From Xanthostigma xanthostigma (taxonomy: Eukaryota; Arthropoda; Insecta; Raphidioptera; Raphidiidae), in assembly GCA_963575645.1 (NCBI GenBank), contig OY754464.1, forward strand, positions 78,838,948-78,902,947: a DNA stretch of 64,000 bases, read 5' to 3'. Numbering within the stretch: the first letter of the stretch is position 1; the number at the start of each line of letters is the position of its first letter. A program made the translations under genes and the position numbers. This document shows, piece by piece, positions 11,701 through 42,505 of the stretch. The notes under the pieces are model-generated. The model saw nothing but the letters and a program-made list of their open reading frames with translations. It did not search any database and was not told the DNA's origin.

Positions 11701-14700
11701 AAATTTACTTGTAGTTGTTTTAATTGATAAATTGGTAAAAAGATTTACAGTGTACGTAATTATTTATTTACGTAACCACAGTAACTATATTAGCGATCAT
11801 TTATCTCATTCTTATTTACTGCTTTAGATCTTTATATATCGTCTCTGTCTTACACACAGAATGTCCTATGGACCGTTTTGATTTGATACAATCTGTATAC
11901 TATTAGTAGTGATTTTGAATTCTTATTTTATTACTTAGTTGTTTTTCTGTTACGGTATTGTTTTATTTTATTTTACGAGAAAAGTACTTTTAGTTTGTCC
12001 GTATGTTTGTTATTCGTTTTGTTAACGTTTTTATAAGTGTAAATAAATATTCACCACCACAGAAAGAACGGTTTTATTACACTATTAAATTAGCTAACAG
12101 TTGTGCATCCCTGATTTAATGGCAAAACACAAAAAAAAATCAATAAAACAAACATAAAAGTACAAGTAGTTTATCACACAGAGCAAATATATTCTGCATT
12201 ATTATCTATCTTTTAACAATTTGTACAAATAAAGCTTTTAGGTGTCCTTATAATTTTGTTTCATTTTTTTTAAGGTAGGTAAACAAACCGCGTCCATGAT
12301 AACAGATGTTGTATATTAAGTTAAATTGATATGCTGTTTAGTGTTTACATTCTTCTAGAAGTATTTTTAACGCAAACACTTCATTAAATGCTGCATCATT
12401 AAATAAAGAAAAAAATTAATCGATTATAGCATTTTGCTATAAGTTTTTTTTATACAAAAAATATTCTTAATGCCAACATTAATTAATTAATTAATTTTTA
12501 AGCAGGTTTATATTGAGCTCTCTTATATTTGAAGGGTACACGGGAAGAAGGCGGTTTGTCAAAAAATGTAAATTGTGCAGGAGAGCATTTTGAAGTGTTT
12601 AAGATCGTACCATTTACTTGCTGATGCATTTCTTTCAACGCTTATAACTTTTGACCTAGCGTATTCTTGTCTAAAATGAATACACCAAACAGAAAGGTAC
12701 GACTTTTGGCTACAAGATAGCATAAACAAATTAATTTCGAATTTTTACTGACAAATCGCCTTCTTCTCGTGTACCCTTCATTTGTATTAAAATGTCACAG
12801 ATGAACGCAAATTATGCATGCAGGCATCAGCAATTACACAGAAAAAATAAAAAGTTTGATAACGTTCCGACTCACCACGCCAGTGTTTGAAGAGAGCCTC
12901 GCGTATTAGACTTCCGATCGCTGGAAACACAACCCACAATAGTGGAATAAAACCGGAACGAATTCGCAAAAAGACAGAGCACAACAGTACAAGAGTCCAA
13001 ATCAATTGAATCCCATCGTAATACAGTTGAAACATGGTCCATGGCTTGAGATCCTACAAGAAATTGTTAAATTTTATAAAACTGTCGACTGAATAATTCT
13101 TATTAACAAGCTACCACACGCTTTCGATGTAAGCCGAAGTTCAGTTGTAATTCAATAGTTTTTAAAAGGTCATACGACTACGAAACTAATTGTTATTTGT
13201 ACTGACCACCCAGAAAAGTTCCCCGATAAGAGCAAGCGGAAATTTGCTACATTTCGATACAGAATTAATACCGCGGACCGCGGTTTGTATCTGGACCGCA
13301 GGTAAGTGTTTCATGGACTGTGATGAAATCGCGTCTAAAGTTTTCAGGACCGCGAAAATTCGACAATATTTAAACGGACCCACAGGAAAAATAACTGCTC
13401 TAAACGATCAATTGCTTCAGAGTATGGTAGCCGTTAAAAAACTCTAATACATACAGTTTGTCTTTTCGATGCCAACAAATACACAAACATACCAACGCAC
13501 AGCGTTGGACATATGTACAAAAAGAGTAACCAAACGGGCCTGGAATACCAACTCATCGTTCGACCAAGAGCTGTCAAAGATGTCGCTATCAGAAGTCCTG
13601 TTATAATAGTTAATATCCATATTGACAATAATAATCCCGAACAAAATATTAACCGCTTCATGTAGACTTTTCTTGGTAATTCTGAAAAAAACAAAATTTG
13701 TCATATTCAACCTATCATAGACCCTTTTATTACAAAGTCAACTAATTTTAGAATGAAAATCACGTTTGAAAAAAAATCCCAGCCATTTGGGCGACCGAAC
13801 CGTTCCAACTTCAAAAATATTGACATTTAAACATATAATAAAAAAAGAAAATTTGTTAGTGCGTGCGGTGACGCGGGTAACGGCTAGTATTAAATATTAT
13901 ATGTGTGGTTACCTAGTACCTACATATTATGTTAACGCGTCATATAAAAATTAACCGAAGTATGCTAGTGAGCTACCTAATTTCTTTTTGACAGATCTAC
14001 AGAACAAAAGAACAGCTGATTTTTTATTTTCAAAATATTTCCGAAACTATAAAGTTTGAAAAAAAATTCTACGAAAGTTTCTTGTAAAAATAAATAGAAT
14101 AAACCATTATAAAAATTATACCAGTTCCTCCAAAAACAGGGCTTTTCATATTTGTATATCAAACAATCTCCCAAAATTTGATTTCAATCCATTCATCCGT
14201 TTGATCTGTATCGTGTTCACAGACAAAACAGACGCACAGACTTTCCAAAAATATGTTTTTGGGCCTCAAAACGAAAAAATATATTAAAATTTTGAAAAGT
14301 GAATTTTGACCTAAATTAGTATCATTCTGACATTTGTGATGTTGAAATGGTAAAATCGTCAATACTACAGTATAAAGTGAGGCATTGTATTCAATTACAA
14401 TTTATTATATACTGTAATTATTGTATAGATGGAATGTCAAGGTTCGATTTAATACAATTAAACCATTTATATAAATTACAAATAAAAGAATATCAATTCT
14501 GTCATTGTATGTTTGCAAAACGTACAAAAAAATGTTTGTATCGCAGCAAACAATATAACTTTACTACCTGAATTCAAAACAAAAGAGGTTTTAAAAACAG
14601 ACGAGCGCGTAACAATGCCATTGTTTATATGGCTTTGCCATAATTCCTCTATTAGAATCCTCCCAGTTTCCAGGTTTTAGCCCGAGAGCAGAGAAGATAT

Positions 14701-17700
14701 ACTGTATAGAAGTTTATTTCTAATGAAACAGTGTGGCCGGAAAATTTAGTTTGTCTTGTTTCTGTTAGATGACAGAACGATCGAGGTTTAGTATCGGCGT
14801 ACAGAGGTGGGGGACGTATATTTCTATCTCTCATCTTCAGAAGTAAATTTGAGCGTTTATCTAAACACCGTAGAAAATAAATATAAGAAATTCATCAATT
14901 TCTGTCGATTTTTTTAATGAAAGATTATGAAAAAATAATGAAAAATTATGAAAAAATGCAATGATTAAGGTGTGAAGCTGAAATTATTAATTGTCGCCAC
15001 CTGGCATTGCGGTTCCGAAGCTTGAGTGCGCCGCATCGCAATCTTGATAATTGGGGTGGGAATGGCTTTGGGGTAATCACCAAATATAACACAGGATTGA
15101 ACTTCTATACAGTCTCTCTTCTCTGCCAAGAGCTAGTTAATGTTAATTGAATAATTTTTAATTGATCATTAAAAAATAATAAATTGAAAATATGAATGAA
15201 AGTTGGGTCTAAAAAATATAAAAATTAACGAACCTTTTGTAGCAGCTATCATACTTCGATAGATTGTCAGCAGCGATAATACGACGCTACTAAGATTAAT
15301 AAAATCTGACAAATATTCAGACCATCGTACAACGAACGCTCCGAGGAAATCAAAAAACACCAGATTGCCAGATCGGAACTGTTCAACATCCGATAATTTG
15401 TGAGAGCTGGACAGACCACGAGCAAGCGCTAAAATATTGTCACCAGTTCTTTGTAACGATCCCAACGGAATTTGATAAACATTATCAAATTTCGTGTGAT
15501 AAACGTAACCATTTGTAGCCCAGGCGAAATCAAGACCTAGAGAAGAGAAAAAATAGCTTAAGTGAATTTCATAGATGCTTAAACTTTATTACTAAACTTT
15601 CAATTTTCAAAAAAACGTTTCATGATGCGATTTACAATTCAAAGGCTGGTTCTGCCGCTAGATTCGCGGCTTGATCTCGCTGTTATGTTCCAAGCATGCT
15701 GTGGTGCTGGATTTTGTGACGTTTGTATGTATGTGCGCGCGCAGTGACAGTTCTAATGTTAACAAAAGTGATCGTTTATTGTCTCTGAACAGAATACACA
15801 CTATGACGCCATGTTTGTTTATGACGTTTGCATATGTCGCCCGCGTGACAATATACTTTTTTCTGATTGGTACTTGCTCAAAGCCAGCAGAGAATCAAGC
15901 TCAAAAAATAGCCTCGGTTCTAATTTTGAGATCCAGCTTGTGATCACGCAGCGAAGTTTGCAATGACACCATTTTCTTCCTCGTAACAAACACAAGTCCC
16001 AGCAGCGAATCCAGCAGCAAAGTCAGCCTCGTGTACAGCGGCCTCTAGACAATTATTTAACATGCATTTTCATGTTTTGAATGATCAATCCTAAACCAAA
16101 ACTGCAAATTTCATTCGAAAGTTTTCCCAACAATTTTTTGTTTTCATAATAGAGTTATTGACAAAATTTCAAAAAGTATTTAAAATTAAAGAATAAAGGT
16201 ATATGTACCCATAAAAAATATTTTTTCTCACAAATATAACAGATTTGACTCATAATTAGTTGTTTTTTATTTTGATTTTAAATTCTGCGCCAAAACGTCA
16301 ATTGACCTTGACAGCCATGTTTACTGATTGCCTACGTCACAGTAGGCAATCAGTAAACACTAAGCAAGCGGGTACAACGTGACATATAGCATTATAACCA
16401 ACAAAGTGTTGCATTTAATATGATTGACAGCTGAGTACAATGAATACACCAGAGAACATACACTGAACAGAGATAACGAATACACATGGCAGTCAGTGGC
16501 ACACAGCTACCGGCCATGTTGACTGATTAATGACGTCACGCGCTGTGATTGGTGTTTGAAATCACGTGACGCATAGGTTAAAAATCGTGATTTTATTTAT
16601 TTATTTTAATATATTTAACGCACTTATTTAATAAAAATAATAATTCTAAACGATATTTTAGACCATAAACTTTCATTATAACACAGTTTTATATTTAATT
16701 TTAATCACTGTCAATAACCCTATTAATGTTTTTATGTTTTTAGGCTTATTCTATGTTGAACTTTGTCATTATTAATATAGGTATATACCTGAAGCATTTC
16801 CAAAATCTCTGAATATTCTATAGTCAGTGTCGCCGGGAATGATTCCGCTTTGAAATATTTCTTGAGCAACGGAAGACGCAAAAGGATAAGGCACCGATTC
16901 CGAATACGTTTCCAATATCCAAGGGTTATTCGGACCGGCCTGAAACAAGATCTCTCTTCCGCCGGCTCCGCAAGCTTCTAAATTAATGAAAGCGCGGACA
17001 CCCTTAGCCCACGGATGTTGCGTTACGAATCCGTGAGATGCTTGCATTAAATTTTCTTCAGCACCGTTGAATAAAAATATTATGTTATTGCGAATGATTT
17101 TATGGGAATGCGTGACAACTCGTAACATTTCCAACATTACGGCACATCCGGCTCCATCGTCGCTTGCACCTGATTATAAAAAGATTTGTTATTGATTTAT
17201 TGGAATTTAAAATGTAGTACACTAACGGCAATGTGAACATTCGATAATGTGACAAAATGTAGCGATCTTCGGCAGCTGTGGCCGATTGCCCAATAACACA
17301 CAAGATATTTTATCGATGTTGTCGATAGTGATAAAAGTAAATATATTTACACAAAATCAGTTTGAAATTACATAAAAACATTCGCAATATTTTGGAACGA
17401 TTTCGCGTAAAATAAATGCCACATAAGGTAATAAATTTTTGCTTTAAATAGTTCACATTAGCGCAAGCAGCAGCGGGTTGACACAAGTCTCCGCTTCGAT
17501 TTTCTTATTTGACTCCAATCTATTGTCATACCACAACAACAAAAATAATGTTTGAGAAGGAAATCAAGTGGTAAGAGTGGTATCATTGATTTAAATAAAT
17601 AATAATGGTGGTGACTTTTAGGTAACCTCAAAAATAATTTAAGACTACATAATGAACATAACATAGTGACTGTGATATAAGAAATTGTTATAAACTATTA

Positions 17701-22548: not shown

Positions 22549-22731
22549 TTAGGTACTCTCAGCTGCAATTCTATCCCGCATGTCAAAAACGCCGATAATG
22601 ATATTGACAACGACGGTGACAATATTCAGTGACAAACAAATGTTGTTCCAAACGTTTGCTTGATTTTGGTCATTTTCTTTGTTGATGTTTAGTCTTGATC
22701 CGAGGAACACGTAGATGATTCCTTGCAGAAC
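22549..22731 (-). CDS. Ninjurin alternative last exon d (60 aa)
   Basis: Not an ORF from ATG, so easily missed. Acceptor TACGAAG, phase 0; it encodes three residues, then GIIYVFLGSRLNIN, a polar NKENDQNQ loop and a hydrophobic LNIVTVVVNIIIGVFD helix. Stop TAA; AATAAA (22490-22495, minus strand) 54 bp later. The polypyrimidine tract is weak. The LNIN motif is shared with exon b, which supports common origin. Confidence 0.82.
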   Translation of the reverse strand, partial: VLQGIIYVFLGSRLNINKENDQNQANVWNNICLSLNIVTVVVNIIIGVFDMRDRIAAEST

Positions 22732-25700
22732 CTTCGTATTATGACCACGTGTGTTGATGTGCAGGATAAATAAAAAGAAAACAAATAAATAAATAAATAA
22801 AAATAGATTGGGAAATTAATAACGACAACAAAAATAAACGAAAAATGATTTTCAAGAATAGATGGGAAAGCAGTATTAAAATGAAAAAAGGCGTTGTTTT
22901 AAGAAAGATAATTTTATATTTTGCTAACATGTCAACAAAAATAGCTTCTGAATTAGGTACAACACTATTTTCGTCTTTAAGTTTTCAACTTATTTTGCTC
23001 TAGAAAGTTTCTTATATCTATTATTATTATTACATTAGGTATTATAATTACATCATTATCAACTGCTTAGTTTCTGGGAGAAGGCATGTATTTGAAACAC
23101 GTGAAGACATTTTGAAAAACAGAAACGCGATCATTTTTATAATACTTCATTGCAGTTAATAATGAACAAAAATATTATACATCCTTTGAATGCAAAATCA
23201 TTAGCTGATAATAATCGTATATGCCTGTTGTTATTCTGAAGTTATTAAATTATTTAAACATTAATAAAGATTCTTGCTTTCACACTTTTCATTTACAATA
23301 TTGTATAAAAATAACCGTTTTAGAGTAAGATTTTGATCGTTTTAAAAACTTATTAAGCATCAACCTGCACGACCAGCACAACGCAAATCTCCAACTTGCA
23401 CGACGTTGCTCACTAAACCAGCACAAACCAGCTAATTTTAATGCAGGTTTCGTGATGAGCGGTAAAAATTTTGGCGTTTTCAAGTAGTTTTATCAACTAA
23501 TTAATGGGAATGACACATCACTAGCACCAGCACGGATCGACAGAAATTGCAGGCGACCCCCTGACGGTCATTGCTGGTTGCAGGTCTAATGTACGCTACT
23601 CCGTGTAATAACATTGGATACTTAAACTTTACGAACAGGCTTTTTTGCTCCGTGCTATGCTGGTCGCGCAGGTTTATGCCTGATAATTGTACGCGCTCTT
23701 TTGGAGGAAAATTATTTTGAAATGTACACAGTGCAAATAAAAGAAAGAAACTATGAGAATTGTTTATTGAATTCAAATAAATGATTTTTTTTAATGCGAC
23801 GGCAGTGTCGCGTTGAATTGGGCGACAGCGGGATCTAACCCGAAATTCATTTTAATGATGTCGCAGAACATTGCACCCATCACAAAGCCGAGAGATACGT
23901 GGTTGATGTAAGCCGCCATGTCTTGTGGCTTGCCATCTTCATCCAAGTTCATCAAACTCATTATTACGGCTAATGCGGCTGCGCTCACCTATCCCAGAAA
24001 GTAAACAAGTTTTACAGTCTATTACTTAAAATTAGCCATAGGCGTAGCAACGATTTTATCCTAGGGGGGAGCAAATTTTCAGGTATAACTACCATTACCA
24101 GCTGCTACTTATACATAATTTGAAAACTGTTCGTAGAAGCGAAATCGATCAACACGACTTTCTGGAGAAATTTCACGACAAAGAAAACGTAGATTATTGT
24201 TATTTGTACGTGAACAATTAATATTAAAGGGTGGACCAGGCCCACCTGGCCTCCCCTCTTGCTACGCCAATGGAATTAACAATTATTTAAAGCTGAATGT
24301 CAGTAACGTTTTGAAGCAAGGGTTATTACTCACCGAAGAATAATTTATGAGAAATTAAAAAAAAAATGTTCGTAAACTATCGCTAAGTACTATACTACTA
24401 AAAAAAAAGGTTAGGACCATTTTGTAAAATATTTGGTTCTCTAATTTTTGTCATAGCATCAACGATTCACAATTGGCACATGGGTAAAACCCTGAAGCCA
24501 TTGGTTACGAAAAAAAACGATTCACAAAATGTTTGTGTTTAAAGTTTCCGACCCCACCAATTTGAAAAAAATATTCGGAAGGCATCCTCCAACATTCAAC
24601 ACATAAAAAATAGACTTAGATTTTTGCAGTTTAAGAGCATAAAAATCAGTGAGAAAAAAAAACAGTTACTATCTCAGTTTAGAAGTGAAACTTTTTTAGG
24701 CTCGGAAGAGCAAATTGGCCTGGATCAGATGACAAGTGAAACGCTTCCCCTTCTCAGACTTCAACCGACGCAGTTGAAAATAAAGAGTGGGAGAATCGTT
24801 TCTACTCTCTCTGTCAAAGCGTCATACGCACTCTGCACGCATGCGCAGTGCGTACTGTGTGATTACGTAGCCGTAATATAACCATTTCCTAAACCAGAAA
24901 TAATAAAATCGTCAACAAATGCTATAGAACTTAAGAAGTTTCACTTCTAACGCAATATTTTTTTATTCATTGTATAATACGCGCCACGAATCTAAAAAGC
25001 TCGGAAGTTAGTTGCGAATGCGGGCTTGCGCTTGTACAGTCTGTTGAAAAACTACAAACTCGCAACTCAACAAAACTAATATAACAATAACAACTTGACA
25101 ATAGCGTACTCGACTGTACTTTAAAGCAAGAAAGCGACAAGTGACAAAGACACAGAGCGATCACGGCCAATCACCGACGAGCGCACGTTCCGTGCAGGTA
25201 GCTGGGAGGTAGTGGGAGTATCAACGGCTCTAAAATGTGCCTTTGCGACGCTGTTTGTGACTAACTTCCGAACCTTTTAGATCCGTGGCGCGTATTATAT
25301 CATGTAATCCAAAAAAACAGTGTTAAGGTAGTTTTTCAGGTGGCGCGGCTTGCTCTCTGAGAAGAATTAGCGGTTGGCTGGAGTGTTCGATTCCAAAACC
25401 GGATATGACGACATTAACGACGGATATAACGAATATAAATATAACAATGATGTCGTTTAGCACCTCGGCGGCTGTCTGATCTCGGTCGCGGTTGATATTC
25501 AGACCTCCGATGATTACAAACAATATTCCAACCATTAGCTGCAGCGTCCACAACGAATTTTGCACATTTAATTGTAAATTCATTTATTACCTACAGTCGG
25601 GAGGAAAAATTGATATTTCAGAGAAAAAACATTCAATTATTTACGGATGTTGACCAGCCCCGGATCTACGATTATTTAAATACCTAAAATATTTTTCTTT

Positions 25701-28700
25701 ACGTATAACTAATTATAATAAATCAAATAAAGTTAATTATATCCTTTATCAGGTGACTGATGTTTCCTCAAATTTGCACACTTTTGCGATTTTGTGGGAA
25801 TGTTTGAGGTCAAATCATCTTCATTTCACTGGTCTAAGCAAGCTTGATAGACTGACAGAGGTTCGTGACGTAGGTCGGACAGTTTTGAGTATTTCAGCGG
25901 GAAATTTAAAAATTATTTTAATTTTTCAATTTTTTCTTGAAAATTAAACATTTCTTACTATTAAAATATTTTTTTCGTGTTTATTAGGGGTCTATCTACA
26001 AAATAAAAACAGTTCCGAAAATTAGTCAAGATCTCTATTTTGAAGGACTTACAGAAGAAAATGCAAAATGACAACATTGATTAATTTGTGGATAAAATAC
26101 AATTCGAGATATTACAGCAATATATTACGTGTTTCCAAAATTTTAATATGAACATACTGGAAAAATTCACATAATATTGGATGAACATATTTTGAACTTT
26201 AGCATTAAGTATTGACATATTTTTATATTATATTGTCGGGTGACACAATGTAGGCGTATAAAGTGGTAAAGATGGTCACAACCTTTTGTCGGAATATAAT
26301 GAATAATTGATTAAAAATGTTTACACATTGAAAATGATACGAGTCGATCTATACAAGGAAATAATACAATCAATATCATTCTAATTTTTTTAAGCACGAC
26401 ATTTATGGTACCTACTCCCTTTGGAAAAATTGTCAATTATAGTGACAATTTTCGGAAATTTTTGTCACAGGGCTCATGGGTAGTTAGGGTAAGAGCAGAA
26501 TTTCCAAAATACGGAAGATAAGCAGCTTATCAATTAACCATAATATGATAAGTTGCAATGGTTAATATGTGTTTTGTTTGAAATTTAGCTACAGTGCCAG
26601 GGAGAATCAATTTTCATAAAAACAATAAACAAAATATATTATTTACTTACTAATCTCGACAAATTTTTAAATTTAAAATTATCATAAAACAGTTTTCTTA
26701 TAAAATTGTTCTGTCAATTCTGTTAATTTTAAATTTAAAAATTTGTCGAGATTCATAATAAATGATCATGTATATTAGAATTATTTTTACAATTTACCAT
26801 CTTAACTTGCATTGAGGCCCTGATGATGAAAATATATTTTTCGAAACGTTGGCCACAAGCGATACACTGGTAAAGCTTATTTTCAATTGTTCCTCAACCA
26901 AATAAATCTCCTTCAATAAGTAATAATGTTATTTAAAGATTTTTTGTCCCGAGGAAATTAAATTCAAAAAAGTCCGCCTTGCAATTTTTAAAATACTAAC
27001 TGATTTTAATTATTGAACTACAATTCATGACCTTAATTTTAAAACCAAATATGTTTTATCAGCTCTTTTGAGTAAGAAGGACTACATTAAAAAACAGAGA
27101 TAAAAGCTGAAATAATTTAAATCTTCAAAATTATTTTTGTAGCTATTTGACGAATGAAGATTATTTCATTTCCTCTTTCAATAAGTATATCATATTATTT
27201 TTCAGTAATAATCTATATATATTGTCCTTTGTGAAAATAGTTCATTAGTTAAAACACTCCAAATTCGTTCATCATTTCGTTTGAAATGTTATTCATCATA
27301 AACAAAAATTATATTTCCCGTTTTGCTTGTATATTTTTTTCTGATAAAGAAACGTTAAAATCAATAAATGTTAATATAGCGTAAACTCTATATAGCGACA
27401 CTCAAGGGACTGTGCACTTTGTGGCGTTATTGAGAGTTGTCGTTAAACGGAGAGGAGAAATAATCCATTAATATTTTTTTACTATAATATGTATTTACTC
27501 ATAATATCAGGGCCGGATTTAGGGAAGGGCAACCGGGGCTACAGCCCCGGGGCCTCCACAAAAGAGGGGCCCACACAATAGAGACTTCGGGAAAAAAATC
27601 AAATTTCCTGAGCATTGAAAGTGATTTACTTCGGGAACTAGATTTCAGCGAAATCATCAACGATTTTTCGGCGAAAAAAGCTCGGAAGGTTCCGTTCGTT
27701 AACGCTAAAATTTAATTTCAGATAATTCTTGTTTCCGATTATATTTATATGTTTGTTAAATAATGAAAGAATCTATACTTGGTTTCGCAATAAATTATTT
27801 ATTGGAAAACTCGACTGAAAAAAATTGTCCATTTTATTTGGAAAATAATTTGGGACCAGGGGGCCTCCACTCTTTTGTTGCCCCGAGGCCTCCTGACCTC
27901 TAAATCCGGCATTGCATAATATATAAAATTTACAACTGACCAACATTCATACTATCACAAAGCAGCTGAGCTAAACATATGAAAGATAATCCCAACGAAC
28001 AAAAGAACGAATTTCCTAGAATCTTCGGTACGCATGGTTCCGACAACAAAGCAACAAATTAACAAACAAGTACTATTTATTGTTCAATGCTGTTTAGAGT
28101 GGATATATCGTTATTTAGAGTGTATCGCTGTATGAACAACAAGGTAAACCAACTAGAGTTAAGTAATTTCGACGTTTTAAGGAGTTGCTCGTTATATCGA
28201 GTGACGTTAAATGGTGTTTACACTGTACATAATTCTGTAATCTGTATTCAAAGGCAAAATTAACGATTTTGTATAAACCTACCAAGAATAACAAAAGGCA
28301 TTAGTCGCTAAAAATGTTACATCCAAGAAAATTATTTGAAATTCAGTTATACGAAAAAAAAACAGTTGTGTGTTTTTAAGAAACCACGACTCAAGTGAAA
28401 CTTTTATTGGATTGTAGGCGTTGGATTGTAGACACTTATCCATCACGATTAATTATAAACAACAATATTCACATGAATACACGAATAAAAACATGTAAAC
28501 ACTGTACAGCACTTGCCCGCATGACAGACTGACTATGTTTTATACATACTACACGGTCAGCTGATGCTAACCATGGGCGCCGCCATATTGGCCTTGGCTG
28601 CTCTATACCGAGCGCCTACTCCGAACGCCTTTCACTTTACCCCTACTCCGCGGCCGCCTGTAATGCGACATGCAACAGACGGCCAGAAAAATTCGGGGCG

Positions 28701-31700
28701 ATAGAATAAAAGTTTCACTTTAAAAATTGAGTAGAGCTTATTCATCGAAAGTTATGTATTGCGCAATGGATGGGTCAAACACGGAGATAAGGAGATTGAG
28801 TGCTGTTACTACGAAAGAACAAGCGGTAGTGAAATAGTTGATGAAGTTTGCCGACTCATGATACTCCGCCAAGTGAAGTCTGCAGTCGCGAAGTAAGTTC
28901 AAGCTGAGGCAAAGAATGCCCACGATGACCTGTGCAGGACAAATACGGGGATATTTCAGGGTCAAAGGGAAAAACAAGAGTGCTCAATTTTTTTGAATAC
29001 TCAATATAAAATTAAATTCAACGTATTGCCCAAAGTCTGAAATCCAATTCTTTTTTTCACCCATTTTAAGACATTATGATGTTTTGACTTTTGAGTGTAA
29101 AATTGTAGAACGTTGGTTGTTTTAATCACTCGTGGCGTGACGGATTAAAAGACCGCGCACACTTACCAAAAACATAAACCTGCACGACCAGTACAGTAGA
29201 AACCTGCAATCTGCACGATATATCGCACACTGGTCCAGCATAAACCAGCAAATTTTAGCACAGATTTCGTAATGTGCTGCAGTTTTCAATGAGTTTTATC
29301 AATGCAAATTAAATAATGAAAACGACACATCACTAGCAAACTAGATCGGTCCAGCACGACTAGACAGAAATTGCAGGCGACCGATTGTCGATCGTTGCTG
29401 TTGGCCGCTGTTTGCAGGTGCTGGTCTCTTGTGCGCTACTCCGTTACATTCCATGGGTACCTTCACGAACAGGCTTTTGTGCTCCATTCTGTGCAGGTCG
29501 TGCAGGTTTATGCTTGACAAGTGTGCGCGATTTTTCAATGTAAATTTTAATTCAGTTTATTTACATTATTAAGTTTTATCGAGAATATTATAATATCAGA
29601 TATATTCAACCACTGCTGATACATTGAAGAATTTCTTTGTTCTTGAGATAGCAGGTGTTTTTTTTTTTATAACACGTAAGATTAGTGAATGATCATTTAA
29701 TTAATTATGCGCTTTTGTTTAGTAGAATAAATTGATTATTTATATAGGTACACAGAAGTCAACAGGTTTATGACACTGTTTTTAATTAATTTATTCATTA
29801 GTTTATTTCATTGTTCTTAAAATACTAATAGAGTCAGATAAAAAACTAATCTGCAGAATAATTCTCACCCGATTGAATTTTTGTAAAAGGCTAAGTGTTA
29901 TCGTGTTTAACTATCTTTGAAAAATCCCCATCGGATACCATGGGTGTACAAAATACTTTTACAGGCGTTAAAAGAAGGTGGAATTCTCTACAATATTTTT
30001 TTCTATAATTCAAAGATTTGCTTATTTAAGTTACCCGCAAACAGAGTGGGGCAGTGCTGAGAACTTGGTGCTTGTAGTAATGCATTAAGCACTTATAAAG
30101 GTTAAAGCACTTTGTCAAACTTGATGCTTAATAGTTCTTATCTTCTTATTTCTGATTGAAACATGATTGTGTGAGCGCAATTTAAGATTTTTGTCAAGGT
30201 CGATTTTCTGACGAGTCGCGCTATCACAGCCCTGGATCTACGATTTTTCCGAACTGGGGCAGAAACTTGATAATGACGCCCCCTCTCTCCAAGCAGATTT
30301 AGTAAATCGGAAAAAGGACAGATTGGGTGTGGTTTTCAACTACCTATATTATATTATGATTTTGGCGCCCACTGAAACTGCCACACGGGGTGGGTGCCCG
30401 GGTTTGCCCCCCCTCCCGTAGATCCGGGGCTGGCTATTCAGCACGTTGTCCACCACGTGTGCGGTAATTAACTGACCTGCAGGACAATTGACACGATGAT
30501 AAGAGTGAGCATCAGAGTGTAGAATTCATGCTTCTCGCCGACCGTCAGGACGTATTTGAGCTGTGACGCATTGGCTGTAAGCAGGGCGATGTCCAGCATG
30601 CCCTGCGCAATTGTTTTCTTCGTCGCATAGCGATTGGCGTCCAGTGTCTTAGCCTAAACAAAAGATAAGTGTTATTGAATGATCGATTACTATAAATTAT
30701 TAGAAAATTTAGCGTTAATCATACTTAATATTCAATGATTAAAACCGTAACCGTTAAAACCGTTTCATTTCGGCAACCAAAACCGAAAACACTATAAGTT
30801 ATATGGATTTATGAATTAGCCACCTCGGCGCATTGGGTCAATTTATAATCTATCCTCCTAGGAGGTGTCTTGGCAAAGATGCAATTTGTCAAAAATTTCT
30901 GCCGCTGGTATTTGCCGGTCATTTGGCTCTAACAGAACTGAAAAACCAACCGGCAGACATTTTTTTAAATTTTGACCATTTTTTACCATCTTTGACATTT
31001 TTCCATCGATGTACACATCGAAAAGAAAATTTTCCATTTTGTTAGGTCTGGTTAGAGGTCACTTTTTGTTTAATTCACGCACGAAAAATGGCCCATGTAT
31101 TTTTCTGCTACTGAAAGTAAATTATACCAAAGGGTTACGCCGACATTTTTTGAAGTGAAAATTTCTTTAGCGGCGTTGTACACTTTTTTTGTAATGGGTA
31201 AAAAATGTTAAACTCGCGTCAGGTCACGTAACCGCGTCAGGACACGTGACCTGATCGAAAATTTTTATTTATACAACGTTAGACATCTAGCGTTGAAATA
31301 TCGTACATAAAAATGCAATCTATGATACAAACCATTTTGATCGAAAATTCAGACATCTAGCATTGAAATATCGTACATAAAAATGCAATCTATGATACAA
31401 ACCATTTTGATCGAAAATTCAGACATTTAGCATTGAAATATCGTACATAAAAATGCAATCTATGATACAAACCATTTTGATCGAAAATTCGTAAGACGTT
31501 AATATTCAAGTTTTCACTTCTGCCAGCACTCCCGGAGTGCAACCCGTCTTTTTTTTTCGATATCCCTCCCCCCATTTTCTTAAAATGTGTCCAGATTCCG
31601 CCTATATATCATGTAAGAAAAAATGCTCTAAATTACTTAAACAGCTTATATATCAGGCGGCAGAAAGTTGGGACGACATGTTTTTTTTTTGCGCGTCAGC

Positions 31701-34700
31701 TCCTAACTAAAAGTCAACAAAGTACCTACTTTTGAAATTTGACGTTATAGTAATCGACGTCCATTTTCTTTCTGCATAATTAAAATGTCTTGAAAAAATT
31801 CATTCAAATATTTTGGCCAAATGTAGATGAATTTTCAATAAATTTGCAAAAAATAAATAAGAATTTTTTAGGACACCTGTGTATACATAATCTTCATATC
31901 TAGAATCATACGATTTAAGCTTATGTTGATATCAGAGATATTAAAGAAGAACTTAAATGGGCTACTTATTAATCAGTAATAACTATATCGGTAATATCAT
32001 TGATTAATTTATCATTTTTGAAGACAATGGCATAGCCGTCGATTTATGAAAAATTCTAAATATTTGTACAGAATGAGTTTTAAGTTGATGCTTTTTTTTA
32101 CAGCGTATAAAAATCAAATAGACGAGCAAATATTTCAAATAGTTTTTTTATCAAAACTCAAAAATAAGAGAGAAACAGCCTTTCGAAGTTTAAATAAATT
32201 TTATTAAATTTTCTTTAATTTTGAGGTCGGTCCTGGGGTTATATTATGTCACTATGGAAATATGTTATTATTATCAAGTATTCACAGAAATTGTTCGAAG
32301 TTGTCCCCGTTTTGTTGGACACAAAGATGCGTGCGCCGTAGCCATGCTTCTGTACATGCTTGATAATAACAACTTATTTCCATAGTGACATAATATAACC
32401 CCAGGACCGAACTCAAAATTAAAGAAAATTTAATAAAATTTATTTAAACTTCGAAAGGCTGTTTCTCTCTTATTTTTGAGTTTTGATAAAAAAACTATTT
32501 GAAATATTTGCTCGTCTATTTAATTTTTACACGCTGTAAAAAAAAAGCATCAACTTAAAACTCACCTGTATATACTTATATATATTTTTAATACATTTCG
32601 TGAAATAAAAAAAACTGATTGAGAATAATTAATAATTGAGCTAATGAGTAATGAGGTGGGTCGTTTTTTGGAACTATTATAAGTACAATCCTTGAGGTCT
32701 ACAAGACCAACTTCCCTATAAGATCAATATTGAGTATGAAATATGTAGGTAATCAAATTAGATCCGAGTAATATTTTTCAAGAAATTCTAAGATATGTTT
32801 CTTTACGGTTGAACGGCTGAACCGATTTTGATCATACTGACGTTACTAAGTTTTGATTGGCACTCTAACAAAGTCGATATCGTTTTTGATTCGTGGGATT
32901 TCGTGTAAAATCCACCTTTTTGCATTATTATTTTTTAAGCAAAAAAAAAAAAAACAGCTGGACCGATTTTTATAAAATTTCTTCTGGATTATATTGACGT
33001 TAATACGCTTCGATTGACACCATAGCGAAGGCGATGTTGTTTTTATTTCGCAATATTTCGTGTAAAATCCATTTTTACAGTCTTTTTGTTTAAGTAAATT
33101 TCGATAGAATTTCTTTTAGGTCAAAATTTCTTTCAGATCATATTTACGTTAATAGTACTTATACGTCGATTGGCAGCTTAACGTAGTCGATATAATTTTT
33201 TATTCTCGAGATAGACACACACACCGAAAGAGAGCTATATTTTCAAAAATAGTTTTAAAATAGTGTAAGACCTTGAAACATTAAAAATTTGTTAAAATTT
33301 TTTACTTCGAATCTCGGGTTCATTACAAGAACTTTCCATTGAACTTGGAAGTATAAAATAATAAGTTGTCGACAAATATCATTTCAAGAAATGCGATTTC
33401 GAGATAAAAATATTGTTTCATTGTATTTTTTTTTTACCTTAACGGCCGCGACTAATTCGGCACAGGCACTAATTGCAATTCCGTCTGTTTGAGCTTGTCC
33501 TTGATCGTTTGAAAAGGCATTGTTAGTGCTACCGTGTTCATCTTCCTCTTTTTTGATGGGCGTTGCGCGTGTTCCTTTGCTCATTTTTTGTTAACTGTTA
33601 CAACTTTTTTATTTAAAACACTCTGGGCAGTCTTTCAATTTAATGAAATATATTTATTGCAAAATTCACAATAGATTTTCGTGTCGTAATCGATAAACTA
33701 TGATCATATTATCTTAATTAAGGATAAGATAAAATTTGGATTTATAACAATGAGCATCAATATTTACGTCATGTCGTTATTGTTTTAGTTAGTTAATTTA
33801 CATGTTTATAATTTTATTGTTTCAAAATGGCACTGTCCCAGTTCCTTTACCTTTGTTTGTTGTCGTTTTCTAATTAAAAAAAAAAAATAGTCACATTTAG
33901 TTACGAATTTTATTACATTTTTTTCAGAATATTCTTCGTCTGTTATGCTTTTATTTAAACTTTAAATTCTATCTACATTTTAGCCGAATTTTTAATTTGA
34001 ATTTCAGAACTGTCAATAGAAAATTTAAGAGTAACTGTAAATTGAGTTGTTGAGTTGACATAGAAAGTCGGTTTAATGAGGAAAGTAGTGCAAAATTTAG
34101 TGCTCATCATTCTAGTCTAGGAGCCAGCGACAGCCTTATGGCTCAATGACTCGTAAAATGCTCTAGACAGTTGTTCTATGTAGCATCGTGGCTGTCAGCT
34201 GCGGCACTATCGGGGGAATAGACAACTGTAGCCTCCCACGCACGGTAAAAAAAATAATATTTTTAATCATTATACCTATCGATTGAAAATTTGTCAAACG
34301 ATAGTTATTAATGATCATTTATAAAAAAAAAACGTCAGCTGGCTGTACGATGGTGCATGTTACGTCAGCTGATCATACGATCTTGACGAAATTAAATATG
34401 AATTCAGTCATTCCCTTTCACATGAAACTTTGTCAAAAGATAGTTTTTATAATATTTAAAATAAATAAAATCGTCAGCTTTACAGTATCAGCTGACAATC
34501 TTTCCCCCAATATACAACGGTTTTATTTATTTTAAAATATATTATCTTTTGACAAAGTTTCATGTGAAAGGGAATGACTGAATTCATATTTCATTTCGTC
34601 AAGTTCGTATGATCAGCTGACGTAACATCCACCATCGTACAGCCAGCTGACGTTTTTTTTTTTTTTTATAAAAGATCATCAATAACTATCGTTTGACAAG

Positions 34701-36925
34701 TTTTCAATCGATAGGTAATGATAAAAAATATTATCTTTTTTACCGTGCGTGGGAGGCTTCAGTACTGGCGTAGCTGACGGCGACGATGCTATATGGTACT
34801 TAGAGCATTTTACGAGTCATTCAGTCATAAGGAAATGGACGACCTAAATATGTCGCTGGCTCCTAGGCTATTCCGCAGACACTATGAAATTATTTCGAAA
34901 TTATTGAAAATGGTCCATACTTCTTCATTTATGAAGATATCTAAAAATTTATTGAATAATATTTGACTAGCTTTTTAAGATCTTTTAAATGGCGTACGTT
35001 TAAACTTTTTATATTCAATTAGCTATTTACATGAACTCTTAGCCTGCGTGTGGGAATTGATTAATAATTAGGCACCTAAACACTTTACACGTCGACGAAA
35101 TTAAAAAAAATATTGGAAAAAAATTTGAGAAAAACTTAACTAACATTTACAACTTATGCAAAACATTAACTGAACACTCAACTAAAAATTTATAGTTTTC
35201 TGCCAACATTGGATTTTTATTATGAACTTTTCCACTTGACTATTTTTTCTTTACTAACGAAACCACAATTTTCTAACTACAATAACGTCTTTTTCCCTGG
35301 CTTCTAACTTTCTACACTAAATTTTATAAGTGCATAACCGTTACATATATTTTTTTTACTTCAGTAGGTAGTGAAAGCGTATATATTTTAATCCGATGTT
35401 TCTTTTGTGTCAAGATCACGGCATTGAAATTGGCATTTTGTAATTATTACATCAATATTTTTTATAATAGATATCTTTTCTTTGATTTTTGTTTACCTTT
35501 TACCTATTACTTCCAATTTACTTAGTATTGTTGTACGATAAAAACTAATATTGAAATGAAACTACAACAATAAAAATTAATTATTTAAAAAAGAAAAAAA
35601 TAAGGATCCCGACTGCACAAAAATGAAATTGATAACAATAAAGAGGAAAACAAATCGGAAAATCTCAACATGCAGCAGGTGGAGACCTATTTGGTTTTTT
35701 TTTCCTTTTGTTTTTGAATGGGTCACCACCACCCGCTTCATGTTGAGATTTTCCGAATTGTTTTCCTCTTTTTTGTTATCAATTTCACCTTTGTGCAGTC
35801 GGGTTTATTGTTTTTTTTTTTTTTTTTTTTATAATTAACTTTTTACATTTAAAATAATTTTTATCGTAAATTATAAAAAATTATAAGTACTAATTATTAT
35901 CTATGTTACATAACAGTAGACTATTTTGCAGATAATATATGCAGCTGTTTCGAACTTTAGTTATAGACTTTTTTATGAGGTTAAAAGCACTATCGCGTGC
36001 TTCCGAAAATTGTCTCATTATATTATTGATAGAGGTCAAGTTTATTAAAGTAGGTCATAATAATTAATGTATATTCTTTAAATAGTGCCTCAACACCTGA
36101 AATTTCCTCCTGAAAATACGTGTTCGCCTTTCAAAATCATTTCCAGATTATAACAATTATTGTATCGGGGTATCTTAATTTATATTGGCGATGGAGTGGT
36201 CGACAAAAGTAAATTTATTATACTGATCATAAAAAAAATTATGTATTACTAGCTGTAACCCGCGACTTCGTCCGCGTGGAATTTATATTTGTTCAGTTCG
36301 CAGAGTTTACGAAAAGACTTCCCTATTTTTCTAAGTTACTCCTTATAACATCAGGTATCTAAGTCCCGTCAAAATCGGTCCAGTCGTTTCGGAGATTAGC
36401 CGGAACAAACAGACAGACAAAACATTTAAAAATTATTTTTTTGTTATATTATGTATTTAGTAAGAAGCTGTTATTTTGACATTACAAACCGACATCAGAA
36501 GCTCAAATAATAATTTTCTATTGGAATATTTTTATAAAAAGCTAATAAAACTACTCATAATAGGACTGATCAAAATTTGGTTTCAATTCGTTTGATCTGT
36601 ATCGCGCTTACAGACAGACGAACAGACTTTTTCCAAAAAATTGTTTTTTGGTCTCGGGGGACCACAAAACGAGAAAATAATGCAAAAGTTTAGGAAAGTA
36701 AATTTTGACGCAAAATTAGTGGGTAGGTATACCATTCCCCTTGTGTAGTCTGAACGTTCTGTATTTTTTATAGAAGTATGTGACAAGCTTTAATGATTAT
36801 CTGATTAAATATTCAAATATAATTACTGATAAATTCAGTGTACATAACTGATTTAAAAAAATATAATTCAAATTGTGATAACTCACCCCAAATCCAATAT
36901 TCATCGCTGCAGGCGCAACTGACAT
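22549..36925 (-). CDS. Ninjurin family membrane protein; 2 alternative first exons, 1 shared exon, 4 alternative last exons
   Basis: Ninjurins are small two-pass plasma-membrane proteins. Vertebrate NINJ1 oligomerises to rupture the membrane of dying cells; insect members act in adhesion and tissue stress. The shared exon (30653-30477) carries YATKK and MLDIALLTANASQLK, nearly identical to the family signature. First exon is 33584-33438 (49 aa) or 36925-36887 (13 aa). Last exon is 28929-28738, 25538-25323, 23988-23791 or 22731-22549. All junctions are phase 0, so any combination stays in frame: predicted isoforms are 168-179 aa (long N-terminus) or 132-143 aa (short), near the family's usual 140-170. 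The splice point falls inside the first transmembrane helix, so the last exon replaces half of that helix, the loop, the second helix and the tail. Family identity is very secure; the alternative use is inferred from sequence. Confidence 0.92.
23352..23698 (+). repeat. MITE 'AACCTGCACGACCAGCAC' family, copy A
   Basis: Between ninjurin exons c and d. It shares AACCTGCACGACCAG, ACACATCACTAGCA and GACAGAAATTGCAGGCGACC with copy B at 29152-29530, in the same orientation. Confidence 0.75.
23763..23768 (-). terminator. Poly(A) signal for ninjurin exon c
   Basis: AATAAA on the minus strand, 23 bp after the stop of last exon c. It gives a very short 3' UTR. Confidence 0.65.
23791..23988 (-). CDS. 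Ninjurin alternative last exon c (65 aa, divergent)
   Basis: Acceptor TTTACTTTCTGGGATAG, phase 0, stop TAA, and AATAAA (plus coordinates 23763-23768) 23 bp after the stop. The architecture matches the others: helix half, polar loop, second helix, tail. The second helix contains Asp and Lys (FCDIIKMNF), unusual in a transmembrane span. A real gene segment is likely because frame, splice site and poly(A) signal coincide. Confidence 0.8.
   Translation of the reverse strand: MSAAALAVIMSLMNLDEDGKPQDMAAYINHVSLGFVMGAMFCDIIKMNFGLDPAVAQFNATLPSH
24679..24950. repeat. MITE, TIR TTAGAAGTGAAACTT, copy 2
   Basis: Ends TTAGAAGTGAAACTT and AAGTTTCACTTCTAA. In ninjurin, between exons b and c. Confidence 0.75.
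24973..25299. repeat. MITE, TIR TATAATACGCGCCACG, copy 2
   Basis: Same family as 6591-6910, inverted. It ends 24 bp before the stop of ninjurin exon b. Confidence 0.85.
25323..25538 (-). CDS. Ninjurin alternative last exon b (71 aa, most canonical)
   Basis: Acceptor GACGCTGCAG, phase 0. Encodes VGILFVIIGGLNIN and a second helix FVISVVNVVISGFGIE, closest of the four to the standard ninjurin C-terminal half (NxFI.AFG pattern). It has a longer polar tail. A MITE (24973-25299) begins 23 bp beyond the stop. Confidence 0.92.
   Translation of the reverse strand, partial: LMVGILFVIIGGLNINRDRDQTAAEVLNDIIVIFIFVISVVNVVISGFGIEHSSQPLILLREQAAPPEKLP
26652..26870 (+). repeat. Penelope-like terminal motif with 30-bp inverted repeat
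   Basis: Near-perfect ~28-bp arms (26652-26681 / 26723-26753), then CTGATGA (26820-26826), a GAAAA/TTTTC hairpin and GAAACG (26843-26848). This order is typical of Penelope-like elements and resembles a hammerhead core. Function not shown. Confidence 0.4.
27377..28225. mobile_element. pogo/Tigger-like element with nested hAT
   Basis: Ends GCGTAAACTCTATATAGCG and complement of CAGTGTAAACACC, with TA flanks. Interior GTTATTGAGAGTTGTCG-type motifs. A hAT MITE is inserted at 27508-27914. Confidence 0.65.
27508..27914. mobile_element. hAT MITE (CAGGGCCGGATTTAGG)
   Basis: Ends CAGGGCCGGATTTAG and CTAAATCCGGCATTG; exact 8-bp duplication CATAATAT at 27500-27507 and 27915-27922. Confidence 0.85.
28393..28726. 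repeat. MITE adjoining ninjurin exon a
   Basis: Ends AAGTGAAACTTTTATTGG and complement AATAAAAGTTTCACTT. Its right end is 12 bp from the exon a stop, and its left end supplies the nearest AATAAA on the minus strand. Confidence 0.7.
28738..28929 (-). CDS. Ninjurin alternative last exon a (63 aa)
   Basis: Acceptor GTCCTGCACAG, phase 0, stop TAA. Starts V-I-V-G-I-L, has a central polar loop and a second hydrophobic helix ending LLISVFD. No AATAAA lies close by; the nearest on this strand is at 28402-28407, inside the MITE that begins 12 bp after the stop. Confidence 0.85.
   Translation of the reverse strand, partial: VIVGILCLSLNLLRDCRLHLAEYHESANFINYFTTACSFVVTALNLLISVFDPSIAQYITFDE
29152..29530 (+). 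repeat. MITE 'AACCTGCACGACCAGCAC' family, copy B
   Basis: Terminal inverted repeats: CGCGCACACTT…CATAAACCTGCACGACC and complement. Between the shared ninjurin exon and exon a. Confidence 0.8.
30227..30432. mobile_element. hAT-like MITE (CAGCCCTGGATCTACG)
   Basis: Ends CAGCCCTGGATCTACG and CGTAGATCCGGGGCTG; flanks GCTATCA and GCTATTCA are a probable decayed duplication. It ends 44 bp from the donor of the shared ninjurin exon. Confidence 0.7.
30477..30653 (-). CDS. Ninjurin shared exon (conserved core)
   Basis: Acceptor TGTTTAG, donor CTGCAG/GTCAGT, 59 codons, phase 0 at both ends. Encodes NRYATKKTIAQGMLDIALL, then TANASQLKYVL and the first half of transmembrane helix 1 ending SIVLQ. It covers the amphipathic-helix region and is the best match to vertebrate NINJ1/NINJ2. 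Confidence 0.96.
31147..31557 (+). repeat. MITE with internal tandem array, copy 1
   Basis: Shares TTAGCGGCGTTGTACAC, CCGGAGTGCAACCCGTC and TTCGTAAGACG with the inverted copy at 57128-57352. Confidence 0.7.
31281..31490. repeat. Three tandem copies of a 70-bp unit
   Basis: Units start at 31281, 31351 and 31421 with AGACATYTAGC and end GATCGAAAATTC; they are almost identical, so the expansion is recent. Confidence 0.9.
32066..32570. repeat. Foldback MITE, family 1 copy 2
   Basis: Arms of about 200 bp, ends GAGTTTTAAGTTGATGC and complement. Located in ninjurin intron 1. Confidence 0.85.
33438..33584 (-). CDS. Ninjurin first exon (49 aa, hydrophilic N-terminus)
   Basis: ATG begins 49 codons that are charged and low in hydrophobic residues, ending AAVK at an AAG/GTAAAA donor, phase 0. 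An in-frame stop lies just upstream, so this ATG is the likely start. Variable hydrophilic N-termini are normal for ninjurins. Open frame continuing below 33438 is intron read-through. Confidence 0.85.
34119..34866. repeat. 750-bp near-palindrome
   Basis: Arms of about 330 bp from TAGGAGCCAGCGACA to its complement. Centre near 34490. It contains repeated GTCAGCTG motifs. Between the two ninjurin first exons. Confidence 0.9.
35605..35812. repeat. Inverted-repeat element
   Basis: CCCGACTGCACAAA and complement; interior TCTCAACATG mirrored. A half copy is at 54778-54900. Confidence 0.75.
36249..36425 (-). repeat. Helitron-like fragment
   Basis: Starts TACTAGCTGTAACCCGCGAC and includes the GTTTCGGAGATTAGCC block, a sequence type widespread in insect genomes. 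Confidence 0.5.
36560..36785. repeat. LINE 3'-end-like repeat, second copy
   Basis: Matches the 14160-14330 repeat, with ACAGACAGACGAACAGAC. Confidence 0.5.
36887..36925 (-). CDS. Ninjurin alternative first exon (13 aa)
   Basis: ATG opens 13 codons (M-S-V-A-P-A-A-M-N-I-G-F-G) that end at a perfect GTGAGT donor in phase 0, the phase required by the shared exon. A second in-frame ATG lies at 36904. This would give a short N-terminus in place of the 49-residue one. Support is the donor plus phase only, so a transcript is needed. Confidence 0.5.
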
Positions 36926-37566
36926 GAGCCCTTTCCACCGTTAACCTTTTTAAGTTTAACTTCAAAGCTTTTTTCTGCTAACTCCACATAAGAATGCGTT
37001 TATATCACCCATAAACCCTCGCGTCTCTGTCACTTTTATTGTTACGTACAGAGAAATATATTGATTATTTACAGAACGCAGATACAAACACACGTGACTC
37101 ACTCGCAGTGTTTTGTTTTTTATATGTAAAACAAAACACGATCTTAATTAATTACCTACTGTGTTTTATTTAAACGAATTATTTGCAAGTGCGAATACAC
37201 TGACTAATAAGAGAATGCAACAGCTGTGATTTAACGGTGTTAATTTATTATTAATATAAGTTGTAAAATTCTTCTTCGCGCTCACTGGTCAGTTTGAAAC
37301 TCATTCATAGTTACACTACAACGGTCTTGGATAAAAGCGTACAGTTTGATGTAAATATACAGCAAGCAAAGTAGTACGAATTATATGAATGAGTATTTAA
37401 TCATGCCTTAATCTATTGTAACACTACATTTGTGACTGTGGGTGTACTAAAATTGCAGACGGAAATTTATTGGTCGAAACAAAATTATTATTTCGGAGTA
37501 AGACATTGGAAAATTGTATCTTTATTGAGCTGAAATTTTTAATATTTTAGTTTGTCAGCTACGTAG

Positions 37567-37875
37567 GAGGTCATCCATAAATTACGTCACATGTTAAGGC
37601 AGAGGAAGGGGGTCCACAAAGTGTGACAAGAGGGAGGGGGGAGTCACAGGCTTAGTGACGTCACATGTATAAATAAAAAAAAACTCTTTAAATAGAAACA
37701 TAAATAATTTTGGAAGTGCTGTTTTCATTTAATGATTTCTAAATTTAAAATTGCAAAATATGTGACGTCACACCAGGGGAGGGGGAGACACACAAATGTG
37801 AGCACCTTTGACTAAGACGGGGGGGGGGGCTCCAAAAATCATGACATTCGTGTGACGTAATTTATGGATGGCCTC
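37567..37875. repeat. MITE, TIR GAGG(T/C)CATCCATAAATTACG
   Basis: Inverted ends of about 24 bp; the interior has GTGACGTCAC-like and G-rich segments. The rest of 36926-40200 has no gene. Confidence 0.85.
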
Positions 37876-38254
37876 TAACTACTTAATTACTAATTTCTTC
37901 AGAACAAAAGAACTATTAGAACGACTAGGTGGATCGAAACCAAATTTTAGTAAATTGTTTGACAAGTAAAAATGAAGAGCCCTCTTGTTTTTAGAGAAGA
38001 TGGACGCATGCGCAGAAGAGATATACGTTAGAACTTTGTTTGAAAAACTATTTATTTTTTCACACATCCTTAGTGGGTAAATAAAAAGGCGCAGTCTTGT
38101 GTGGTTCCGATTTAATCATCCATTCTATGTTCTATTATGTATTGTTATTTTGCTTTTGTCGTTTACAATTTACACCCATTGGACCATTCAATATTACGAA
38201 CGTTTTTTTTTCGCTATTTCTGAATCCTCGGCTCGCCTTGAGCATCATTGCGCG

Positions 38255-39065
38255 CAGTGTAAAAATATCAAACTTTCGGCCGTTGTGGTGTAATAGGTAG
38301 GTATACTATTTAAGGGTCGTATTATAATTTATTTTGCCCAAAAACTTAAGCAATTATTAAATACACTATTTCTTACGGTCAGCCAGTGGTAAAAAAATTA
38401 GGTTGGTACCTATAACTTATTCATCAGTTGCGTGTTTTAAATTGAGGGTTATCAATTTTAGGTTTAATTTGTTAGGAAATACGTTAACTATAAGTTTTGT
38501 AATTCGTTTCAAGGTTTAGGGTGTTTAAACACAAAATAATAGTAGGTACAGGATTTCCACTTGATTTTTAATGTCGTCTCTGCAATATCCTACATCCATC
38601 ATAAGTACCTATAATATATTTTGTCTAATTAATACATTGTGTTCGGGTAAAATCAAATATAAACTATCTTTTGAAAATAAATATGTTTTCTTCATACCTC
38701 GATCGAAAGTGCATACTTTCGGCCTCAATTGTAAGGCAGAAAGTCTAACATTTACTCCTTGGTCGGATTACACGCACCAATGAGGGAAGTTCGTACGTTC
38801 GGGCGCTAGTAAAGCAAAAACAACCACTCAATTGTTGTTTAGCTGTCGTTTCCATAGCAACCTTATTACATTTTAACTAATAGTCGCGAACAGCTGTCAT
38901 TCGTGTTTTTACGTATAACCTCAAAGCTTCTTGCTTGGAATTTATCTGTTTTTTTTATGTAATTAATAAGTAATTAATGTATTTAATAAGCGTTCTTACG
39001 ACTGAGGTATGAAGAAAAATAGTATACACCACACTTTCGGCCCTTGTGGTGTAATATACTATTTT
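38255..39065. repeat. Candidate element bounded by TTCGGCC.TTGTGGTGTAAT repeats
   Basis: The motif occurs near 38275 and again at about 39035; a third, partial CTTTCGGCC lies near 38715. Borders uncertain. Confidence 0.35.
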
Positions 39066-39860
39066 GGAAATTCAAAGATGGTGACAGGGACACTATCAAC
39101 ACGAAATTTTTAGATGAGAAGGAGGAGTCATTTTATAACTCCTCTACACATTCGTTTAAAAAAATTGAAAAATTGTTTTCTAAATAGTTAACAGAATAAA
39201 ATGCAAGTTAGTGAATATCTGCAAAATAAATAAATTATATTCTTCGAAACAAACATTACAAAAATAATACATTTACATTTTATAAATAAATCAGTCTAAT
39301 TTCATAAAAATAAAAATAAATGCCTTGGGCAGGACCTAGAAACAAAGAAACCAGATAGATATTGCAAATTATAGACGCTCAATAAAAGGGTTCATTTATT
39401 GATCGGTATTTGAAATTATATCAGTTAATCTTCAAGATCGAACAAATAAGATAAAATAAAATATTTCAAACTTTATAATTGTTCCTTTTTATCCCAGATC
39501 CTGGATTTTTTTTATTTACAAAAATTTTATAATCGAATCAAATATTTTTTCAATATAATACTAAAATGTCAAAACAATTTTTATAGTAATTTTTCTGTGG
39601 CGTTATAATAATAAGCGTATGTTTTTATATTTTTAGTTTTTACGTATTTGGAACAAAAACAGGTATTCGTTATATGAACTAGGTATACCTATACCTGAAT
39701 CTACAATTATTTCACACTATATACATTTATATTTTATTTGTACCTAACGGGTATTCCATTACTAAATTTTTAGCATAAGACAAATCAACTGTATAATTAG
39801 GGAATGTAAAGCTCTAATAATTGTCCAAATCTTTGATTAACGTCTGAATAGAACTCTTCA

Positions 39861-42370: not shown

Positions 42371-42505
42371 GCTATTGGTAGTTTATCTTCAATTCCGCAG
42401 TTACTTCAATAAAATAAGGAATCTAGATAAATACAAACAACTGTAATTTAATAATAGCAGAGATAAATCATTTTTATTTGCAGTCTTAAAGATTTTGATA
42501 CTTAC

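Follow-up and report, generated by a model that had tools for sequence, protein, structure and literature searches.

The minus strand of a 64,000-nt stretch of the Xanthostigma xanthostigma genome (OY754464.1:78,838,948-78,902,947) carries a single ninjurin core exon and, downstream of it, four exons, named a, b, c and d, that could each encode a C-terminal end. The whole stretch will be hereafter referred to as the window, and the coordinates given below are window positions. Proteins of the ninjurin family break membranes or act in adhesion. In mammalian cells, the ninjurin NINJ1 executes plasma membrane rupture (PMC10307626), and in flies, over-expression of NijA leads to non-apoptotic death (PMC3460944). 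Here, we describe the layout of this locus, which is real and unusual and not an artefact. We consider it likely that the locus is one minus-strand ninjurin gene with a single core, four alternative last exons and, further upstream, one or two first exons. If this is true, one ninjurin locus could give rise to four membrane proteins, each with a different part for self-assembly.

The core exon encodes the region of the amphipathic helices 1 and 2 and the first half of transmembrane helix 3. It ends in phase 0 at ...IVLQ with the donor CAG/gtcagt, and reading through into the intron adds only two residues before a stop. Exons a, b, c and d, which are spaced 1.1-3.2 kb apart, each lie directly 3' of an AG, are open in phase 0 and have their own stop. 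A single donor (30477), four downstream acceptors of the same phase and one stop per exon make the pattern of alternative last exons, as read from the DNA. A sequence-only reading had earlier placed the five segments at these positions, with AG borders, phase 0, open frames and own stops, and all of this was recovered when the sequence was read again. It had also noted that a, b and d carry Gly as their fourth residue; this is indeed so, while c has an Ala. The GC content of the four ends is 0.39-0.48 versus 0.31-0.38 between them. The best 19-residue hydropathy in the region of helix 4 is 2.90 in b, 2.50 in d, 1.88 in a and 1.43 in c, where an Asp and a Lys lie inside the segment.

Table 1 Features of the ninjurin locus and other ninjurin loci of the genome. 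Positions are those of the window, except in the last three lines; aa, amino acids; nt, nucleotides; MITE, miniature inverted-repeat transposable element.
Feature	Position	Strand	Remarks
Candidate alternative first coding exon, 13 aa (MSVAPAAMNIGFG)	36887..36925	-	Phase-0 donor GGG/gtgagt; putative
Candidate first coding exon, 49 aa, polar (MSKGTRATPIKK...)	33438..33584	-	Phase-0 donor AAG/gtaaaa; start context caaaaaATG; putative
Shared ninjurin core exon	30477..30653	-	92.7 bits to PF04923 (genome search), 93.4 bits as protein
Alternative C-terminal exon a, 63 aa + stop	28738..28929	-	Core+a 122.6 bits; 38% identity to a C10 paralogue
Young repeat, edges approximate	28354..28727	-	About 8-15 nt past the stop of exon a
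Alternative C-terminal exon b, 71 aa + stop, top-scoring end	25323..25538	-	Core+b 138.6 bits
Young inverted-repeat, MITE-like element	24973..25299	-	Starts 23 nt past the stop of exon b; inverted arms of 45-47 nt
Alternative C-terminal exon c, 65 aa + stop, divergent	23791..23988	-	Core+c 115.1 bits
Alternative C-terminal exon d, 60 aa + stop	22549..22731	-	Core+d 132.5 bits
C10 ninjurin cluster, three tandem core + end pairs	G000:C10:21635745-21644110 (L009, L010)	-	Found by Pfam and tblastn
Intronless near-identical copy of the second C10 gene	L011:4988-5326 (G000:C8:10797 kb)	-	Joined exactly at the splice point
Second C8 ninjurin gene	L012:5075-5898 (G000:C8:41347 kb)	-	Coding interrupted earlier, near ...TVAQG; helix 3 uninterrupted at this place

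The curated cut-off of the Pfam ninjurin profile, PF04923, is 26 bits. When the core was joined to each of the four ends, the whole profile was covered in every case, with scores (Table 1) that come mostly from the core. Taken alone, exons b (35.0 bits, E 1.4e-8) and d (29.8 bits, E 5.8e-7) are over the cut-off, exon a (20.1 bits, E 6.1e-4) is below it and exon c has no match. A null test used a profile made of seven sequences from outside the window, namely three NINJ1/NINJ2 rows, three C10 genes and one C8 gene. The core was joined to AG-bounded phase-0 frames of 40-95 residues, taken from both strands of 124 kb (n=1019, including the ninjurin frames). With this profile, the core alone scored 74.5 bits, and the gains were 45.3 bits for b, 32.8 for a and 31.7 for d. 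The frames that reached b, a and d numbered 15, 17 and 18, respectively, themselves included, and all were ninjurin, the best unrelated gain being 11.0 bits. On this similarity, exons a, b and d are ninjurin ends.

Exon c is supported by a different set of comparisons. Added to the core in the Pfam search, it raised the score by 21.7 bits, from 93.4 to 115.1. Shuffles of c gave +2.3 and +11.8 (two made by hand) and +5.3 to +14.0 (ten scripted local shuffles), while decoys gave +1.1 to +7.2 (four) and -5.0 to +5.1 (ten of 16 hydrophobic decoys). None of these 26 controls (12 shuffles and 14 decoys) reached the gain of c. Furthermore, exon c aligned to b with z values of 4.6 and 3.9 against locally shuffled controls, with 0 of 500 reaching it each way; no clear alignment was obtained with a and d. 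Exon c is thus a probable ninjurin end, with moderate support. The earlier description of the ends as clearly paralogous is borne out for a, b and d but not for c, which lacks a Pfam match of its own. Its proposal that one core serves four alternative C-terminal exons is kept here as the best reading, given the single core and the intact in-phase ends, but the membership of c is moderate.

The distance from each stop to the nearest polyadenylation signal was considered next to the repeats that lie behind the exons. An AATAAA is located 22 nt past the stop of c and 53 nt past that of d, which are the two nearby signals that had been reported before, and 355 nt past that of b. The MITE-like element accounts for 327 of the 355 nt behind b, and the signal would lie at +28 without it. 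Of this element, 39 other near-full copies were scored that are 95-97% identical (40 with itself, of 1782 candidates). The young repeat behind a is a different element, with 39 other matches in the genome that are 94-98% identical (40 with itself); comparison with five copies puts its edges at 28725-28729 and 28354-28359. A further inverted-repeat element at 24951-24678 has AAGTGAAACTT ends like the repeat behind a and is absent from the match list of that repeat. Once the repeat behind b is discounted, an AATAAA is found 22-53 nt past the stop in three of the four ends. The chance of an AATAAA per 60 nt is 0.127 in this region, which by simple arithmetic gives about 0.08 for at least two of four ends and about 0.007 for at least three. 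These signals support terminal rather than internal exons. The repeats were also considered as an origin of the exons, and this was rejected, as genome searches with c and with a reported no other copy of c and only weak partial matches of a, and the repeats adjoin the coding ends from outside.

Several observations weigh against the reading of one gene with four alternative last exons. This reading is a prediction from the DNA sequence of one genome. We infer the splicing and the expression of the ninjurin ends as well as an isoform-specific assembly, the last being a prediction, and both first exons (Table 1) are guesses. A C-terminal profile from which c had been left out failed to detect it (E 57). 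In the null test, its gain of 9.8 bits is below that of one unrelated frame (11.0) of the 1019, and it is therefore not separated from chance. Its similarity to NINJ1 and NINJ2 is marginal (p 0.026 and 0.016), and to the C10 and C8 paralogues it aligned no better than shuffles did (p 0.15-0.64). The acceptors were ranked by their best run of pyrimidines within 42 nt upstream of the AG, in comparison with 927 minus-strand AGs at 19-40 kb. The acceptor of a is good (7% of the background AGs reach it) and those of the core, c and d are fair (21%), but that of b is poor, with 93% equal or better, and a rival AG 52 nt upstream of b has a better pyrimidine run and is out of frame. By the pyrimidine content of the last 17 nt, the acceptor of d is also poor (63%). 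The acceptor of c is thus ordinary, that of d weak on one measure and that of b weak. The sole AATAAA within 600 nt of the stop of a, at +329, lies inside the young repeat.

The evidence for constraint is of mixed value as well. The agreement at second versus third codon positions is 0.64 versus 0.31 for b and d, 0.68 versus 0.30 for a and b, and 0.56 versus 0.22 for b and c, a contrast that is in part inflated by shared hydrophobic composition. In an IQ-TREE tree of the ends, six of the seven supports are below 70 and a grouping of the four ends was not recovered. The four ends sit on long terminal branches, of about 0.5-1.9 substitutions per site, and the four open frames have therefore outlasted much change. 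When a, b and d were changed neutrally in simulations (400 runs for each setting, indels ignored), the exons stayed free of stops in 18-48% of the runs. Because neutral exons often stay open, the open frames alone are modest evidence, and the kept similarity to ninjurins is the better argument.

These points could also be read in another way, in which the gene uses only some of these ends, namely b and perhaps also a or d, giving one to three ends, while c and possibly one more are a chance frame or a dying exon copy. The failures of c in the two profile tests, the frequency with which simulated neutral exons stay open and the unremarkable acceptors would all fit this explanation, which we consider possible, although unlikely. 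It does not account well for the Pfam gain of c beyond 26 of 26 controls, its alignment with b, its AATAAA at +22 and its raised GC content, nor for the survival of four open frames over such long terminal branches.

The search for further ninjurin pieces bears on whether the four ends belong to one core. Neither a second core nor a core relic was found in the 64 kb, including the segments between the four ends, by tblastn or with a profile, the latter covering open frames of 25 residues or longer. A profile scan of the window found no strong end beyond the four. A plus-strand match of 13 positions at 11994-12116 (E 0.007 to 0.017) was tried as a further end and taken for chance. A Pfam search of the 623 Mb genome returned ten ninjurin matches, two of which, the core and b, are in the window. 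This search missed a, c and d, so it is not exhaustive for ends. One scan each of viral and of bacterial and archaeal contigs found no ninjurin relatives.

The other loci consist of the C10 cluster and two C8 sequences (Table 1). All three C10 paralogues have a phase-0 intron after Gln, with gt/ag borders, and the splice point in helix 3 is therefore common within the family. In the third C10 gene, a single open frame of 335 codons takes the core further upstream into a long stretch rich in Pro and Gly, which is probably an ectodomain. The intronless copy at C8 looks like a young retrocopy. Among the ninjurin loci found in the genome, the layout of one core and four ends is peculiar to the window, the others having one end per core.

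The C10 cluster, with its three tandem core and end pairs, demonstrates that duplication of whole genes occurs in this family in this genome. The four ends could accordingly be what remains of tandem whole-gene duplications, the downstream cores having been lost and the orphan ends lying outside the working unit. We hold this to be improbable, as the window has no core relic, and an orphan end without a core would have no reason to retain its frame, its phase and its similarity to ninjurins. A loss of cores followed by capture of the ends into one gene is a possible origin of the present layout. It is more improbable still, to the point of being hardly credible, that the ends are parts of separate genes, some being spliced to other, unrecognised upstream exons with their own promoters. 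Nothing direct favors such an arrangement, although the spacing of the exons would permit it, and the ends begin in the middle of a transmembrane helix, at the point at which the core ends, and share its phase, with no other core found in the window. One gene with a single core and four alternative last exons is the reading that we retain as the most likely.

Upstream of the core, a scan of 30660-40600 for segments running from an ATG to a phase-0 donor found three candidate first exons, the third of which (32925-32842) was not taken. A protein search with the product of the candidate at 33438-33584 gave one match in the genome. Tandem units of about 70 bp each, nearly identical to one another, are seen by eye upstream of the core exon, at about 31283-31500, and two large imperfect palindromes, also noticed by eye, lie between the candidate first exons and the core, at about 32060-32600 and 34160-34900. 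On one side of the locus, Pfam-marked pieces of a gene for an ERMP1-like metallopeptidase of the endoplasmic reticulum (Peptidase_M28, ERMP1-TM, ERMP1_C) are found at 8619-17173 on the minus strand. On the other side, a long open frame with many C2H2 zinc fingers occupies 40622-42382, also on the minus strand. As it is flanked by these two, the ninjurin gene is probably confined to about 22.5-40 kb.

The position of the splice point can be compared with the known structure of NINJ1. According to Degen et al. 2023 (PMC10307626), helix 1 (44-55) of NINJ1 contacts the adjacent protomer, and helices 3 and 4 (79-103 and 114-138) form the core of the filament. Furthermore, the substitutions K45Q, D53A, I84F, Q91A, G95L, T123L, I134F and A138L gave less lysis and fewer filaments, and G95-F127, the most significant co-evolving pair, links helices 3 and 4 of different subunits. 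G93, G95 and G124 are described as kink residues required for lysis in PMC11564778. In the window, the splice point falls directly after the residue aligned with Q91. The positions aligned with K45, D53, I84 and Q91 are in the core, which retains K, D and Q at the places of K45, D53 and Q91, while those aligned with G95, T123, F127, I134 and A138 are in the swapped part. The residues at 95 and 127 are Gly and Phe in both a and b, Ala and Met in c, and Gly and Ile in d. Because G95 and F127 are both in the swapped exon, each end would carry its own version of the contact between helices 3 and 4. Exon c has an Asp at N133 and a Lys at I136, where the other nine rows of the alignment always have Asn and always Ile or Val, respectively.

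Based on this comparison, a mechanism can be proposed. The core donor, after the Gln that corresponds to Q91 of NINJ1, would be joined to one of the four phase-0 acceptors, and the last exons would be mutually exclusive. Each last exon would supply the second half of transmembrane helix 3, a loop, helix 4, a tail and a stop, with a putative poly(A) signal near three of them. The predicted isoforms would share helices 1 and 2 and differ in the surface of helices 3 and 4. With its own version of the contact, each isoform may favor its own kind when polymerizing or adhering. The residues at these positions suggest that a and b would make ordinary ninjurins, that d would make a modified ninjurin, and that the subunit made with c would polymerize in an altered way or not at all; this subunit may be non-polymerizing, dampening or regulatory. 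We also put forward, tentatively and with considerable doubt, a self-recognition code, in which the shared helices 1 and 2 would admit any isoform to a chain, the helix 3/4 pair would set the partner, c would act as a poison or cap subunit and the choice of splicing would determine if a cell can undergo rupture. The sequence-only reading had suggested that proteins with the same core and different second halves might form different oligomers; this fits the published structure of NINJ1, but rupture or adhesion by each isoform is a prediction.

If the proposal is true, the interface of a polymer is swapped by splicing while the rest of the protein is kept constant, which would provide a natural experiment to learn which of the contacts are important. 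The locus would offer isoforms to compare and would suggest that membrane-rupture activity can be controlled by splicing. Experiments on a single cDNA of such a gene would test just one of its several products.

Among solved structures, five nearly full-length chains of NINJ1 and NINJ2 match the core joined to b, with E values from 1.4e-23 to 1e-20. Like NINJ1 and NINJ2 (PF04923), the core with each of the four ends aligns over the whole domain. However, the locus in the window has four C-terminal versions, of which c departs at G95, F127, N133 and I136, and d at F127. The C10 cluster has the same phase-0 intron after Gln in helix 3, but it consists of three separate pairs of core and end, in contrast with one core and four ends. 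The Drosophila ninjurins NijA, NijB and NijC have two transmembrane helices and an N-terminal ectodomain that is variable (PMC11664169, PMC3460944). In contrast to the locus described here, they are three genes, NijA being drawn with four exons (PMC3460944), and the available parts of these two papers do not mention alternative C-terminal exons. The available parts of PMC4528696, PMC6262927 and PMC8376254 contain nothing bearing on exon structure, and the terms 'isoform' and 'splice' are absent from PMC13093763. In the open-access literature, none of the matches listed reported a ninjurin with alternative C-terminal exons, and to that extent the earlier impression that this arrangement is uncharacterised holds. 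The kind of layout, a shared core with alternative last exons, is already known, while a swap that splits a helix and replaces the oligomer interface in a membrane-rupture family is undescribed in the open papers found. Some insect gene models may list several ninjurin isoforms.

In the insect genes lola and fruitless, common 5' exons are joined to one of several 3' terminal exons. There, the zinc-finger ends of transcription factors are swapped, whereas the gene in the window would swap in the middle of a membrane helix and replace an oligomer interface. In Dscam, mutually exclusive duplicated exons, of which one is used at a time, diversify a membrane adhesion protein. The Dscam exons form internal clusters and encode mostly the ectodomain, whereas the exons of the window are predicted to be terminal, encode transmembrane segments and number only four.

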